IMG/VR virus record: IMGVR_UViG_3300046511_000576
Coordinates: 1 to 37,181 of that record
Source of the DNA: a virus
Direction: 5' to 3' (one strand)
DNA length: 37,181 nt
Shown here: in pieces, positions 1-37,181 of the stretch
Layout: the number at the start of each line of letters is the position of its first letter
Numbering within the stretch: the first letter of the stretch is position 1
Notes under the pieces: model-generated
The model's database searches: none
What the model saw: the letters and a program-made list of their open reading frames with translations, nothing else
Told to the model about the DNA's origin: nothing
Program-made: the position numbers and the translations under genes

Positions 1-73
1 CGCGCCGGTTGCCTCGCGGGTTGCCTCGCGGGTTGCCGCGCCGGTTGCCTCGCGGGTTGCCTCGTCGGTTGCC
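1..73. repeat. Terminal overlap, identical to 37109-37181
   Basis: Bases 1-73 match 37109-37181 exactly, the usual sign of a circular or terminally redundant assembly. The match lies wholly inside the 12-bp repeat array, and the same 73 bases also occur at 253-325, so alone it does not prove the join. The in-frame continuation of the DUF6745-like gene across the join is the stronger evidence. I do not read this as a biological direct terminal repeat. Confidence 0.9.
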
Positions 74-450
74 TCGCGGGTTGCCGCGTAGGTTGCCGCG
101 TAGGTTGCCGCGTAGGTTGCCGCGCCGGTTGCCGCGCCGGTTGCCGCGCCGGTTGCCGCGCCGGTTGCCTCGCGGGTTGCCTCGTCGGTTGCCTCGCGGG
201 TTGCCGCGTAGGTTGCCGCGCCGGTTGCCGCGCCGGTTGCCTCGCGGGTTGCCGCGCCGGTTGCCTCGCGGGTTGCCTCGCGGGTTGCCGCGCCGGTTGC
301 CTCGCGGGTTGCCTCGTCGGTTGCCTCGCGGGTTGCCGCGTAGGTTGCCGCGTAGGTTGCCTCGCCGGTTGCCGCGCCGGTTGCCTCGCGGGTTGCCGCG
401 CCGGTTGCCTCGCGGGTTGCCTCGCCGGTTGCCTCGTAGGTTGCCTCGTT
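1..450. repeat. 12-bp tandem repeat array, left-end part (37 units)
   Basis: Thirty-seven 12-bp units begin at 7, 19, 31 and so on to 439, each starting GGTTGCC followed by KCG and two variable bases. With two more units at 37091 and 37103 the joined array has 39 units with no length change anywhere. Variation is confined to one base (T or G after GGTTGCC) and the last two bases (CG, CC, TC, TA, TT). On the minus strand these are the first residue of each tetrapeptide and an E/A choice. Bases 229-354 are identical to the junction copy (37085-37108 joined to 1-102), a 126-bp internal duplication. Confidence 0.97.
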
Positions 451-729
451 TTTGATTAATTGCTTACGGCAGTGGATAATCCACGAAGCCGCACCATAAG
501 CGAAAGCCATAACCGCAGGGCTTGGTACGATTACGACACGTGGTTCTTTCAAACCGGCAGCGGCGTATAAGTTCTTTATAGCCGGGACGATTTTAGACGG
601 GACAATTGGATCCGTACGCATGGCGCGTTTGATCCACAATTGCGCATGGGCGTCCAGCTTGATTTTTTCCTCAGGTGTCACTCCGCCTCCCGCAAAATCT
701 GGACGACGAATAAATTTTGATACTGCCAT
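1..729 (-). CDS. DUF6745-like repeat protein, N-terminal part (continues at window right end)
   Basis: The minus-strand frame opens at ATG 729, preceded by AGGAG, and stays open to base 1. Residues 1-93 are a unique domain containing AAGLKEPRVVIVPSPAVMAF, which I recall from phage DUF6745 proteins. From residue 94 the chain is an uninterrupted run of tetrapeptides X-(E/A)-A-T, such as REAT, GAAT, YAAT and DEAT. Joining the two window ends across their 73-bp overlap (729 to 1, then 37108 to 36404) gives 1434 nt, exactly 478 codons, so this is one gene cut by the linearisation point. The join predicts 93 unique residues, 39 tetrapeptides (94-249) and a 228-residue C-terminal part. It is the first gene of the leftward operon behind the promoter at 800-828. 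Function is unknown; the repeat may be a long helical or rod-like linker. Confidence 0.9.
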   Translation of the reverse strand, partial: MAVSKFIRRPDFAGGGVTPEEKIKLDAHAQLWIKRAMRTDPIVPSKIVPAIKNLYAAAGLKEPRVVIVPSPAVMAFAYGAASWIIHCRKQLIKNEATYEATGEATREATGAATREATGAATGEATYAATYAATREATDEATREATGAATREATREATGAATREATGAATGAATYAATREATDEATREATGAATGAATGAATGAATYAATYAATYAATREATDEATREATGAATREATREATGA

Positions 730-11019: not shown

Positions 11020-11541
11020 GTGAAGAAAACTTACCTCGCCGCGTTGATCGGCTCGTTTTTCCCGGCGATCATTGGCCCGGGTAATAACCCTAATGTGGGG
11101 TTGCTCGGTGCGCTCCCGGATGTCACATCTCTGAACAGCGCCATTCTGAACATTAATCCGTTTCAGGAAACCAACGTCAATTCCGCCGCGAACACGACAG
11201 CATTTACGCTCGTAGGTCCTCAGATTTCGGGGGCAGCTCAGAATTTCCTCTTTCTTGCTGGCACTCTCGGCGCCGGTGCGGCGCTCACTTTGCCGACAGT
11301 CGCCAATATGTTGCTGTCTTTGCCCCCCAACGTCCAAGCTGCGCCTATCGGAACCAGTTGGCAGTGCCGGATTATCAATAACGGTGCTGGCGCCTTCGCG
11401 TGGACCGTGACTACTGCTACGGGCTGGACGCTTCCCGCCCATGTTGCCATCGCGCAAAATACTTTCGTTGATTACGTCATCCAAATCACCGGTGCGGCCA
11501 CAGCAACAATGACCTCCGTGGGTTCGGGAGTTTCGCCTTGA
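11020..11541 (+). CDS. Putative structural protein upstream of scaffold
   Basis: GTG 11020 follows AGGAG (11009-11013). The 173-residue product begins with a hydrophobic stretch (MKKTYLAALIGSFFPAIIGP) and continues as beta-rich sequence with WQCRIINNGAGAFAWTVTTA and TFVDYVIQITGAATATMTSV. That pattern is common in phage head-decoration and fibre domains. It directly precedes scaffold and capsid genes in the unit with its own promoter, so a decoration or head-fibre protein is likely. No precise family assigned. Confidence 0.6.
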   Translation: MKKTYLAALIGSFFPAIIGPGNNPNVGLLGALPDVTSLNSAILNINPFQETNVNSAANTTAFTLVGPQISGAAQNFLFLAGTLGAGAALTLPTVANMLLSLPPNVQAAPIGTSWQCRIINNGAGAFAWTVTTATGWTLPAHVAIAQNTFVDYVIQITGAATATMTSVGSGVSP

Positions 11542-12290
11542 ACACGCTACTTTTTTTATTTCTCAAGCTTTTTTCGAGCTTGTTCCCAAGCGTTGACGAC
11601 GACGAGCTGCCGGAACTTCCCGACGATACCGTCTATGAGGACCAGGCAGACGACGATACCGTCGATGAGGACCAGGCAGACGACGATACCGTCGATGAGG
11701 ACGAACCGCCAGCACGACAATCCAAACGTGCCACGCGGGACGATTCCAGCTCCCGCGCGGTAGAAGCAGCGTTGGAGCGCGCCCGAAAGCTTGAGGAAGA
11801 TGTCGAAACCCTCAAGCGTAGCTCGGCAGCACCCTCCGAGGATCAGCGCCTGCGCGCCGAGGAAGACCGCCAGTTAGCTGATCCGCAAGCCGATCCAATG
11901 ACTAAATGGCAGATTCAAGCCAATCGTACTTTGCGCGATACGCAGCAAAACGCAAATCGTGCGCTGGCCGAAGCACGGGATATGCAGGACCGCGCCGCTT
12001 TCATGTCGAAATCAGCAACCGACCCACGCCGCGCCAAGTACGAAGACCGGATAGAGAAAGAGCTGAAAACACTGCGCAACAAAGGTCAGAACGTTGACCG
12101 CGAGACGCTTTACTACTACCAACTGGGCAAGGATATTGCCGAGGGTAAGCTGAAAGCGGCGCCGAAGAAAACCAACGCCGCAAGTGTGCCGCGTGGCCGG
12201 ACGCCGGCGGCGCGCAGCGATGTACGTTCACGCGGTAATAGCAGAAGTTCGTCGGGGGCACGCGAGCGCCTGGCAGACAAACCAATTTAA
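11538..12290 (+). CDS. Putative scaffolding protein
   Basis: The start is TTG 11538, overlapping the preceding TGA; no other start exists upstream of the conserved part. The 250-residue protein has a hydrophobic N-terminus (MNTLLFLFLKLFSSLFPSV), an acidic tract of near-identical 10-residue repeats (DDDTVDEDQA), a long charged coiled coil (residues 75-150) and a basic, Ser/Arg-rich C-terminus ending ARERLADKPI. Acidic/helical/basic composition just before the capsid gene is typical of scaffolds. The N-terminal 19 residues resemble those of the capsid protein (10 of 19 identical), an odd feature that also supports the TTG start. Confidence 0.78.
   Translation: MNTLLFLFLKLFSSLFPSVDDDELPELPDDTVYEDQADDDTVDEDQADDDTVDEDEPPARQSKRATRDDSSSRAVEAALERARKLEEDVETLKRSSAAPSEDQRLRAEEDRQLADPQADPMTKWQIQANRTLRDTQQNANRALAEARDMQDRAAFMSKSATDPRRAKYEDRIEKELKTLRNKGQNVDRETLYYYQLGKDIAEGKLKAAPKKTNAASVPRGRTPAARSDVRSRGNSRSSSGARERLADKPI
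11621..11702 (+). repeat. 30-bp tandem repeat inside scaffold gene
   Basis: About 2.8 copies of a 30-bp unit (GACGACGATACCGTCGATGA at its core) at 11621-11648, 11649-11678 and 11679-11702 encode the acidic DDDTVDEDQA repeat. The second and third copies are nearly identical and the first differs by TCTATG for TCGATG, which suggests recent expansion. Unit length is a multiple of three, so copy number can vary without frameshift. Confidence 0.85.
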
Positions 12291-34760: not shown

Positions 34761-35960
34761 TTACATGCTTAAAATACTTTTCAGCACAACTTGGGCGTAG
34801 ACCACATACACGAAATCACTCGGGTGGTTCACTCCGTTCGCCGTCACGTCATAGAAGGATTTACGGGTCAGCATCGTGTCCCATACCGCCGAGGTAACGT
34901 TGGCGACTGAGATTTTTGGATCGCCAGTCATGCCGTACATATCACCGTTATACCAAACGAAGGGCGTCCAGCTCATAGGTTGCCAGTCGGGGTTCCCCGG
35001 CCAGCTAGAAACGAGCAGGATTTCCACATTAGGGTTGAGGGCCTTGGCGGCGTTGATCATTGTGGTTAAGTTGGCTGAGAAAGCCGCGGCTGTGGTAGGG
35101 GCGACGGCGTCATTCATACCGTAGGGGATCACCAGATAATCGGTAGGCGTATCACCAACCAAAGCGCTGGCGTTCGCAGCGCCTTCTACGCTACTTGTGC
35201 CGCCTACGGCCTTGTTACGTGTATAAACCTGGCCTGGGTATTGCTGGCTGAGATACGCGGTTACTAGAGCAGCGTAGCCGGGTTGCATAGGGGCTTGCCC
35301 ATTGTCCTTCGAGGAATTGCTCCCGGCGGTGATACTGTCCCCGATAAATGTGATAGTCACTGCTTGCCCTGCTTTCAACTTCCCTATCAAATTCCTAGGG
35401 GGGTTAATGGTGACAGGGGGATCTGCTGTGAATTGCGCGCTACTGTACGTGACTGCGATTTGGTTGGATTGATAGGTACTGTCGATCCGCAACGGGCCGC
35501 CGTTCTTTGTGTAAGGCTGGAATTGCGGCGGCGTGTTAGGAACCATTGTGTGCACGTAATCAACCGCGACCTGGGGGATAGTGGAACCGGCTGGAATAAC
35601 GAACTGATTATTCACTACTTGGTAGTCCCGGCCGGGAGCGAAGATAACGCCAGTCGCCCTGTTTCGTACAAGCTGAATTTCAAAAACCGGACGCCACAGA
35701 TTGTAAGCCGCCACACCCTGAACAGGGAGAAGAGATTCATCGTAGACAATATTGCTGTTCCAGAAAAACTTATCCACATTGAATTTACTTATCAGGTCAC
35801 CAGCGCAAGAGGAACTGGTACAGGCAGTGTATTTGCTGTAATCAAACACTACGGCCGTAGGGGGGTTGGCTACTGCTTTAGGTGTAGGTGTAGAGTCGCC
35901 CGATCCGCCCCCGCCACACGCAGAAAGGAACAAACAGAGGACGAGAATAAGCGTTTTCAT
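34761..35960 (-). CDS. SGNH/GDSL-hydrolase lipoprotein
   Basis: ATG 35960 (after AAGGAAA) gives a lipoprotein signal MKTLILVLCLFLSACGGGG with lipobox LSAC and C15 as the lipidated residue; the frame is open upstream to 36038 but that would bury the signal. After a beta-rich N-terminal domain the C-terminal half has all SGNH blocks: FIGDSITAGS (Ser209), VGGTSS (Gly), YGMND (Asn283) and VNHPSD (His379, Asp382). The 399-residue enzyme should be an active esterase/deacetylase tethered in the cell envelope. In a phage early region it may modify surface polysaccharide or block superinfection. A hairpin separates it from the gene upstream. Confidence 0.9.
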   Translation of the reverse strand: MKTLILVLCLFLSACGGGGSGDSTPTPKAVANPPTAVVFDYSKYTACTSSSCAGDLISKFNVDKFFWNSNIVYDESLLPVQGVAAYNLWRPVFEIQLVRNRATGVIFAPGRDYQVVNNQFVIPAGSTIPQVAVDYVHTMVPNTPPQFQPYTKNGGPLRIDSTYQSNQIAVTYSSAQFTADPPVTINPPRNLIGKLKAGQAVTITFIGDSITAGSNSSKDNGQAPMQPGYAALVTAYLSQQYPGQVYTRNKAVGGTSSVEGAANASALVGDTPTDYLVIPYGMNDAVAPTTAAAFSANLTTMINAAKALNPNVEILLVSSWPGNPDWQPMSWTPFVWYNGDMYGMTGDPKISVANVTSAVWDTMLTRKSFYDVTANGVNHPSDFVYVVYAQVVLKSILSM

Positions 35961-36004
35961 TTTATTTTCCTTATCAGGACTGAAATATAATTTAAAATCG
36001 AAAT

Positions 36005-36026
36005 ACGACGGGTTTAACGCCGTCGT
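36005..36026 (-). terminator. Hairpin upstream of the lipoprotein gene
   Basis: ACGACGG (36005-36011) pairs with CCGTCGT (36020-36026) around an 8-nt loop; on the minus strand a T-rich stretch (ATTTCGATTTT) follows. It lies in the 74-bp gap between the 117-residue gene and the lipoprotein gene, so it may partly terminate transcripts from the 800-828 promoter and leave the lipoprotein gene to its own start. No clear promoter was found in the gap. Confidence 0.45.
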
Positions 36027-36034
36027 TTCTGGGT

Positions 36035-36388
36035 TCAATCTTCAACGCGGCGCCAGCCTTCTGGCGAGTACTCGCGCTGACGACGGATTTCATAGTCGCC
36101 GGCGTCTATTTTGATTGTTTCGTGGGTATCGTGACCGCGCAAATGTTCCAACAACGTTTCAGTCGCGTCCGTTGCTTCTATCACGCGAAGATATGAAATC
36201 ATCGGATCGCCTGTCGTCAACAGCTGAACGTTAGGCCGCGCTTCGATGACATGGTTGTGGCCTGTTTCGCTGTGCGCAACTACGAAAACACCATTTTCCG
36301 GTGTAACCGTTACCGCAGTAGCAGGAATAGAGTCGATACGACGGATCATCAGATCGCCTTGTGCTGCCATTTTGTTAAATGTTTTCAT
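36035..36388 (-). CDS. Hypothetical protein adjacent to DUF6745-like gene
   Basis: The 117-residue product begins MKTFNKMAAQGDLMIRRIDS and contains VFVVAHSETGHNHVIEA, a His-rich stretch that I recall in small proteins next to DUF6745 genes, then a charged C-terminus ending EGWRRVED. The ATG follows GGAGCAATTGAA, 15 bp after the stop of the DUF6745-like gene. The two probably work together. Three histidines around a Thr-Gly turn might bind metal, but this is only a suggestion. Confidence 0.65.
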   Translation of the reverse strand: MKTFNKMAAQGDLMIRRIDSIPATAVTVTPENGVFVVAHSETGHNHVIEARPNVQLLTTGDPMISYLRVIEATDATETLLEHLRGHDTHETIKIDAGDYEIRRQREYSPEGWRRVED

Positions 36389-36403: not shown

Positions 36404-37181
36404 TTAAGTACGTACTTCGGGTGAAAAGTCTTTAGGATCAAGACCGTAGGTCCAGGCATTTGCTTGGATCGCCGTCCTCATGTCTGGCGGTACAGGAAGC
36501 GCAAACTGGCGTCCCGTGCCGCATTTCACTTGCAAAAACCGCTCCCGGCCGGAGTCCGGTAAATCAACTTCCAGTAATGTTCCGATTTCTTCATCGCCGT
36601 CTTCATCGATGATACGAGCGTTCAATTCGGTCAGAATTTTTGACCAACCGACAATTTCACATGCTGCGCGACGTTGCTCGATGTTGGGCCATGTAAGTGC
36701 TTCCTTTGCCGATGGCGGCTTCCCGCTTACCCATTCACCCGGGATCACGACACCGTGCCAGTGGTATAAACTCCACCCGTCACGCCAACGATGTGACGGG
36801 CCGTTCTCGCAATGTGGGCGATTTTCGTTATCCACTCTCAAAATTTCCGGGAAATCGCTCACCATGCAGAAATCCTCATGCATGACACGGAATCCGCCCT
36901 CAATTGCACATTGTTCCCAAGCTGCATATTTGTCATAAATAAGCAGTTTCAGGCCGAGAACATCACGTCCTGCTGATAAATAGCTATCGTAAGCCGCCCA
37001 CATATTGCCACCTTGATAATTCCCCCACCACCGTTGAGCGCATTGCAAGCCCCCCATTCCCGCTAAATCTTGACAGGCAGCCGCCGCGCCGGTTGCCTCG
37101 CGGGTTGCCGCGCCGGTTGCCTCGCGGGTTGCCTCGCGGGTTGCCGCGCCGGTTGCCTCGCGGGTTGCCTCGTCGGTTGCC
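36404..37181 (-). CDS. DUF6745-like repeat protein, C-terminal part (continues from window left end)
   Basis: The frame enters at 37181 as tetrapeptide repeats, passes a degenerate unit (GAAAAC) and continues as unique sequence to a stop at 36404. An internal ATG at 37057 is not needed as a start, because the same frame continues upstream into the repeats. The unique part contains QGGNMWAAYDSYLSAGRDVL, WEQCAIEGGFRVMHEDFCMV, RPHCENGPSHRWRDGWSLYH and WHGVVIPGEWVSG, the core I associate with DUF6745. The joined protein would be about 477 residues. No enzymatic motif is evident; the conserved Trp/His/Arg-rich centre suggests a binding or catalytic surface of unknown role. Confidence 0.88.
   Translation of the reverse strand, partial: ATDEATREATGAATREATREATGAATREATGAAAACQDLAGMGGLQCAQRWWGNYQGGNMWAAYDSYLSAGRDVLGLKLLIYDKYAAWEQCAIEGGFRVMHEDFCMVSDFPEILRVDNENRPHCENGPSHRWRDGWSLYHWHGVVIPGEWVSGKPPSAKEALTWPNIEQRRAACEIVGWSKILTELNARIIDEDGDEEIGTLLEVDLPDSGRERFLQVKCGTGRQFALPVPPDMRTAIQANAWTYGLDPKDFSPEVRT
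37085..37181. repeat. 12-bp tandem repeat array, right-end part
   Basis: The array resumes here with a half unit at 37085-37090 and full units from 37091; bases 37109-37181 duplicate 1-73. Counting the overlap once, this end adds two units (37091 and 37103) to the 37 at the left end. The unit order here is the same as at 229-325. Confidence 0.95.

Follow-up and report, generated by a model that had tools for sequence, protein, structure and literature searches.

Protein scaffolds built of near-identical units, in which variability is restricted to specific positions and the order of the units is subject to fast turnover, include TALE repeats, ankyrin repeats and LRR receptors. DUF6745 (PF20530) already has an entry in Pfam, as a domain whose function is unknown. 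In the literature searched, which excluded subscription journals and preprints, nothing functional was found on DUF6745, on STM4012-STM4015 or on phage tetrapeptide repeats. Within the same limits, DUF6745 is named by no paper, and STM4013 and STM4015 are mentioned only in passing. The window analysed here is a single IMG/VR virus record of 37,181 bases, and hosts a DUF6745 gene split by the ends of the contig within a tandem array. The array, the palette of residues at its variable position, and the two-gene module to which the gene belongs appear undescribed. Many bacterial viruses share a DUF6745 protein with a fast-changing repeat arm in the middle, and our analyses suggest that this arm binds at several sites and is attached to a conserved machine of two proteins.

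A gene divided between the contig ends

The minus-strand frame starting at 729 is open up to the contig end at base 1, and the frame entering at 37181 is open down to 36404. The parts of the gene are the following:

457-729, minus strand: 5' part of the DUF6745 gene, with start codon and N-domain, running into the array (ORF; relatives; AlphaFold flank of the intact relative L006)
1-456, minus strand: N-side share of the array, with the first 12-bp units, codons E/A-A-T-X (TRF, unit parsing)
253-325, minus strand: third copy of the 73-base junction sequence, inside the array (exact match)
37083-37181, minus strand: C-side share of the array, the final 73 bases being the same as bases 1-73 (TRF, comparison of the ends)
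36404-37082, minus strand: 3' part of the DUF6745 gene, with C-domain and stop (PF20530, E 1.2e-19; 67 viral relatives)

Bases 1-73 and 37109-37181 match exactly. This is the sole terminal overlap among lengths of 12 to 399 bases, and falls within the 12-bp array. Counted once, it yields a joined frame of 1434 nt (477 codons plus stop), which runs from the ATG at 729 to the stop at 36404 and has no internal stop. The corresponding protein of 477 residues consists of an N-part of 93-94 residues, 39 perfect in-register 12-bp units, and a C-part of about 228 residues that includes DUF6745. End-to-end concatenation gives instead 1507 nt, out of frame. Collapsing the overlap therefore matters, since plain joining shifts the frame. 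The preliminary description had reported both the 1434-nt join and the 39 perfect units between parts of about 93 and 228 residues; the two claims are reproduced once the overlap is collapsed, and its author had evidently done so without stating it. The number of units is another matter. The junction 73-mer recurs at 253-325, and units 9-18 of the array recur as units 30-39; short reads hence cannot fix the count. Any number fitting 18+21n (18, 39, 60 and so on) agrees with the assembly, and 39 is an uncertain figure chosen by the assembler. The claim that an ordinary gene caller would yield nothing but a 217-residue fragment goes too far, because partial proteins of 243 and 258 aa are listed when open ends are allowed. 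The TRF scores of the array (563 and 142) are such that its occurrence cannot be attributed to chance.

Close relatives bear directly on the reconstruction. In L006 and L007 the N-domain, the array and the C-domain lie in one frame on single contigs. Both are 92% identical to the C-part of the window, and between them neither the final 600 nt nor the predicted protein shows any difference. In three further close relatives (contigs of L008/L074, L009/L073 and L010/L077) the C-part and the N-part stand at opposite contig ends, and every break falls within the contig's own array. Adjacency of the window ends does not therefore rest on the 73-base overlap alone, and the notion that the gene straddles the contig ends is upheld by intact relatives, shared overlap and relatives broken at the array. 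Assemblies thus break repeatedly at the array, which is what circular or circularly permuted genomes would lead one to expect. Joining by overlap was attempted for the split contigs of L008, L009 and L010, but no terminal overlap was found, and their arrays thus cannot be closed. As such arrays break contigs, the DUF6745 genes of metagenomic phages escape notice at the ends of contigs.

The DUF6745 domain, its partner and the surrounding operon

The C-part of the window protein matches PF20530 with 70.9 bits (E 1.2e-19) over profile positions 31-206 of 206, well above the gathering score of 27 bits, in agreement with the DUF6745-like assignment initially made. The intact L006 protein scores 67.7 bits. 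The columns invariant among 25 relatives (D293, G294, W300, H301, G302 and R329) form a DG-(x)5-WHG motif and include the R of an RR helix, and all have equivalents in the C-part of the window. Relatives of the C-part were found at 67 viral loci, and at several loci in bacterial genomes. Cultured bacteria that carry DUF6745 loci in prophages include Aminobacter aganoensis DSM 7051 and Mesorhizobium sp. B2-3-4. The N-part, predicted to fold as helix-helix-strand-helix, has relatives at 15 viral loci when searched alone. A Deinococcus DUF6745 protein (L088, 5374-6375) has an LRR-effector-like leucine-rich-repeat region fused before the domain, at the site occupied in phages by the array. The genes next to the DUF6745 start and stop include the following features:

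36035-36388, minus strand: partner gene, 117 aa, phrog_27831 (E 1.1e-12), 15 bases downstream of the DUF6745 stop
730-900, no strand assigned: divergent control region, promoter-like hexamers on both strands (consensus matches only)
840-851 and 878-889, between the HTH gene and the DUF6745 gene: two near-identical CAATTGTTA sites (TATCAATTGTTA/TAGCAATTGTTA; consensus match)

DUF6745 and the partner constitute a two-gene module with conserved pairing. The partner is found near DUF6745 at 61 of the 67 viral loci, within the flanks available for these, and at 66 of 67 cellular loci, which are bacterial and nearly all from actinobacteria. Searched alone, the partner retrieved 11 of 50,697 phage records, precisely those retrieved by the DUF6745 domain, at a nearby position in each. 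Residues E41, H44, H46, H89, E106, P109, R113 and D117 are invariant in 19 partner sequences, and these, the first four above all, hint at a possible metal site of the cupin type, a name that no family or structure match supports. The partner has no match in Pfam, NCBIfam or PDB; phrog_27831 lacks a Pfam or NCBIfam model though it is conserved, beside DUF6745, from phages to Streptomyces, Nocardia and Deinococcus. Neither the DUF6745 protein nor the partner is matched by PADLOC models of known anti-phage defence. Genes of the STM4011-STM4015 cluster lie beside the cellular pair at 64 of the 67 loci; among the window genes named by Pfam or PHROGs there is no radical SAM, hydrolase, STM4014 or STM4015. 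Phages of the Ma-LMM01 group lack the array and still keep the pair, which is therefore the core of the system, the arm being an addition.

The DUF6745 gene heads a leftward operon, and is followed by the partner, a GDSL-type esterase, one gene with no assignment, an exonuclease, a Gp2.5-like annealing protein, a DNA polymerase and a helicase. It is divergent from the genes encoding an HTH regulator (901-1209) and a primase/helicase. Terminase, portal and head genes are on the opposite strand. An SD-like AGGAG precedes the start codon at 729. The first place in an operon with replication genes, the divergent regulator and the promoter-like matches upstream make 'early', the term used in the preliminary description, a fair one, and early expression of the gene is plausible on these grounds; a part in host takeover, also raised there, would be conjecture. 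The paired sites at 840-851 and 878-889 are possible operators of a genetic switch. Two other features of the window may be mentioned. The GDSL-type esterase of the operon (34761-36038, minus strand; PF13472, E 4e-17) shows what resembles a lipoprotein signal (LSAC) if translation begins at an ATG near 35960 and not at the listed TTG at 36038, and might be a surface-acting accessory gene. A 30-bp repeat (11621-11702, 2.7 copies, 98% identical) resides within the ORF 11538-12290, directly upstream of the major head protein gene.

Composition and turnover of the array

The unit had been described as X-(E/A)-A-T. This is correct for the window, but not as a fixed unit of the family, since relatives vary as X-B-(A/Q/S)-(T/V/L), with different unit DNA. 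Unit types seen across the 67 viral and several bacterial-genome loci are AAT, SAT, QAT, NAT, NAV, SQV, DQV, DQL and SSL. Comparing homologs for presence and length of the repeat, as initially proposed, revealed that most phage relatives have an array at this site, with lengths ranging from no units (L022, L023, L025, Ma-LMM01) to about 70. The gene had also been called interrupted. The array does lie between conserved parts; yet the term implies an accident, while most phage relatives bear a different array at the very same site. An imperfect eight-residue higher-order repeat (xEAVxDATxRAV type), unlike the other four-residue arrays, occurs in an 882-residue member encoded by a 179-kb phage contig (L071, 988-3636).

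Variation is sharply confined within the unit. In 52 arrays, the fraction of non-majority bases is 0.50, 0.32 and 0.06 at the first, second and third base of the X codon, 0.17 at the middle base of B, and 0.00-0.02 in the two constant codons, silent sites included. X codons ending in a pyrimidine encode mostly D (28%), Y (26%) and R (23%), which together make 76%; those ending in a purine encode G (27%), R (26%), W (25%) and E (11%), which make 88%. Despite the different codons, the share of aromatics (25-26%) and of Arg (23-26%) at X is the same in both classes. Pro is missing at X, and Lys and Thr are almost absent. Among 43 non-redundant arrays, which are phylogenetically related and do not count as independent trials, all contain aromatic and acidic residues and 39 contain Arg, four lacking it; the acid is at X in 37, and the remaining 6 all have Asp at B (Fisher p = 0.004). 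The mean net charge is -0.14 per unit. A codon persistently polymorphic in homogenised DNA would point to selection for diversity acting against concerted turnover. The palette is the strongest sign, and the data together imply protein-level selection on chemical character coupled to rapid turnover of the units.

Turnover is fast. L006 and L009 show 96.8% identity across their final 600 nt, yet their longest shared run of units is no longer than in shuffles. In L059 and L060, which are 99.7% identical, the arrays are rearranged, and the longest common run spans seven units. Purine-ending A-T arrays have at least three origins on starred branches of the C-domain tree; those of L010 and L011 fall inside the starred clade of six that includes the window. 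Each array reuses few unit types. The array is a hypervariable feature across the family. A common lag in the order of X residues, taken as a sign of solenoid turns, was searched for among the arrays and not found. Arg is slightly enriched one unit after an acid (z 2.5) and Arg-Arg is depleted (z -2.2); both effects are absent two units on. The bias could fit i/i+4 contacts in a helix, but is weak and one of many comparisons.

In the AlphaFold2 model of L006, obtained with 25 aligned sequences, the flanks are confidently predicted (most blocks near 90), and the array appears as one long helix with pLDDT below 50. An array of the SQV type, modelled with a thin alignment, gave a helix again at low confidence. 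At such values, the helical array is a tentative prediction. Fold searches of viral models retrieved DUF6745-like relatives and no others, and those of PDB gave no significant match; the antifreeze protein 4ke2 was listed there with no significance. Sequence matches in PDB were limited to designed helical repeats and low-complexity proteins, and were driven by composition.

Possible roles of the array and comparison with known systems

The model that we tentatively favour starts from the architecture, operon position, partner pairing, palette constraint and rapid turnover documented above. The conserved N- and C-parts of the DUF6745 protein would form a head that acts with the His-motif partner encoded by the next gene. 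Between them would sit an arm of variable length, probably alpha-helical, made of X-B-(A/Q/S)-(T/V/L) tetrapeptides, in which X is limited to a narrow palette (Arg, Asp/Glu, Tyr/Trp, Gly/Ala). It would evolve fast, as 12-bp units are duplicated, lost and placed in a new order and selection maintains the palette. The arm may be an evolvable multivalent contact surface, able to establish salt bridges, cation-pi and aromatic contacts, and could recruit to the head, early in infection, either a protein target that changes or further copies of itself. Members with no array indicate that the arm is dispensable to the head, and a helix is predicted for two unit types, as expected of such an arm; Gly, common at X in purine-ending arrays, is unfavourable to a stable helix, and this palette would also be appropriate for a disordered region that associates with itself.

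The latter is the main rival, unlikely on balance but to be taken seriously. Arg, Tyr/Trp and acidic residues would be stickers, Ala, Ser, Gln and Thr spacers, and the region would self-associate, for example in a replication compartment, with no specific target. The palette combining R, Y/W and D/E, the near-neutral charge, the use of Arg without Lys, the lack of a common lag and the low pLDDT fit this scheme. It accounts poorly for the lack of Pro and the paucity of Ser, Asn and Gln at X, although these are one base away, for the strict four-residue register, and for spacers that include V and L. AlphaFold moreover favours a helix for both unit types, and the weak acid-to-Arg enrichment is seen at one unit and not at two. 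A passive linker, that is a tolerated, self-expanding, microsatellite-like insertion in which differences at X have no consequence, would readily explain why lengths range so widely, why some members have no array, and how in-frame 12-bp units can multiply and leave the gene intact. If the array were neutral and subject to concerted turnover, X would however be expected to lose diversity, and silent sites to vary too. The opposite is seen: the first two bases of X vary in nearly all arrays, silent sites do not, and the palette reappears where other codons are used. Because of the palette, we consider a passive linker improbable. We regard as quite improbable a bolder reading, in which X residues would spell out, by their order, a combinatorial code for recognition, a lineage-specific barcode for a fast-changing host target or for self/non-self sorting of co-infecting phages, and the head with its partner is the invariant effector.

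Three other explanations were weighed. The repeat may act as DNA (binding-site array, origin, recombination site), coding being secondary, and the long GC-rich array does adjoin the control region and replication genes. Yet unit DNA is wholly different between phages (for example GCAACC, GCGACC, CAGGTC, CAAGTG) while the peptide pattern persists, and for this reason a DNA-level function was rejected as very improbable. The reading frame is moreover always kept, and the exact unit is absent from other relevant contigs; a search of viral contigs for the window unit gave two matching contigs, in each case through a monotonous repeat of GATA type that is unrelated. That each X reads one nucleic-acid base, in a TALE-like manner, is hardly credible. 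One hypervariable position per unit, about four chemical classes and long ordered strings recall such readers, but arrays are slightly acidic on average, lack Lys and in some cases Arg, and pyrimidine- and purine-ending arrays use different residue sets. No homology to any nucleic-acid-binding repeat was found, and the Pfam search gave no TALE-type match; the net charge of -0.14 per unit disfavours nucleic-acid binding in general. Equally far-fetched is the generation of X codons by a diversity-generating retroelement or a similar targeted mutator. Variation concentrated at two bases of one codon, with an NNC or NNG pattern, is reminiscent of these systems. Still, the window has no reverse transcriptase (no RVT_1 match, with positive controls), the mixture at X is far from NNC expectation, having no Pro and almost no Thr, and few unit types are reused in each array.

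If the arm sets binding specificity, as the favoured model would have it, the family would provide a new natural route to evolvable binders. The DUF6745 proteins of dozens of phages carry one of the simplest possible diversifying scaffolds, with four residues, one or two of them variable, a restricted palette and rapid reshuffling. With its nearly obligate partner, and with a cellular counterpart next to STM4011-STM4015 and their radical SAM gene, the system is directly testable.

Resemblance to known systems is partial at each level. The C-domain of the window exceeds the PF20530 cut-off, and the N-part and total length fit phage and cellular members; the profile has no array, and most phage members carry one. 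In cellular members the domain is preceded by a non-repetitive stretch, or by a leucine-rich-repeat region in Deinococcus. The cellular pair, found beside genes for a radical SAM protein, a hydrolase, STM4014 and the LRR-like STM4015, consists likewise of two adjacent genes. In contrast, phage flanks, like the window in those of its genes named by Pfam or PHROGs, show the pair alone, gene order is often reversed, and phages add the array. Ala-rich single helices, such as type I antifreeze-like proteins and designed helical repeats, share with the array an Ala-rich helical prediction; the phage palette differs in varying with aromatics, some unit versions carry V, L or Q, and the phage helix is a low-confidence prediction. 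Compared with TALE, ankyrin and LRR scaffolds, the phage unit is far shorter, at four residues, shows no sequence homology and has no known ligand, and its constant part does not correspond to any known solenoid fold. What the phage array has in common with them is that units are nearly identical, that variability is limited to certain positions, and that unit order turns over fast.
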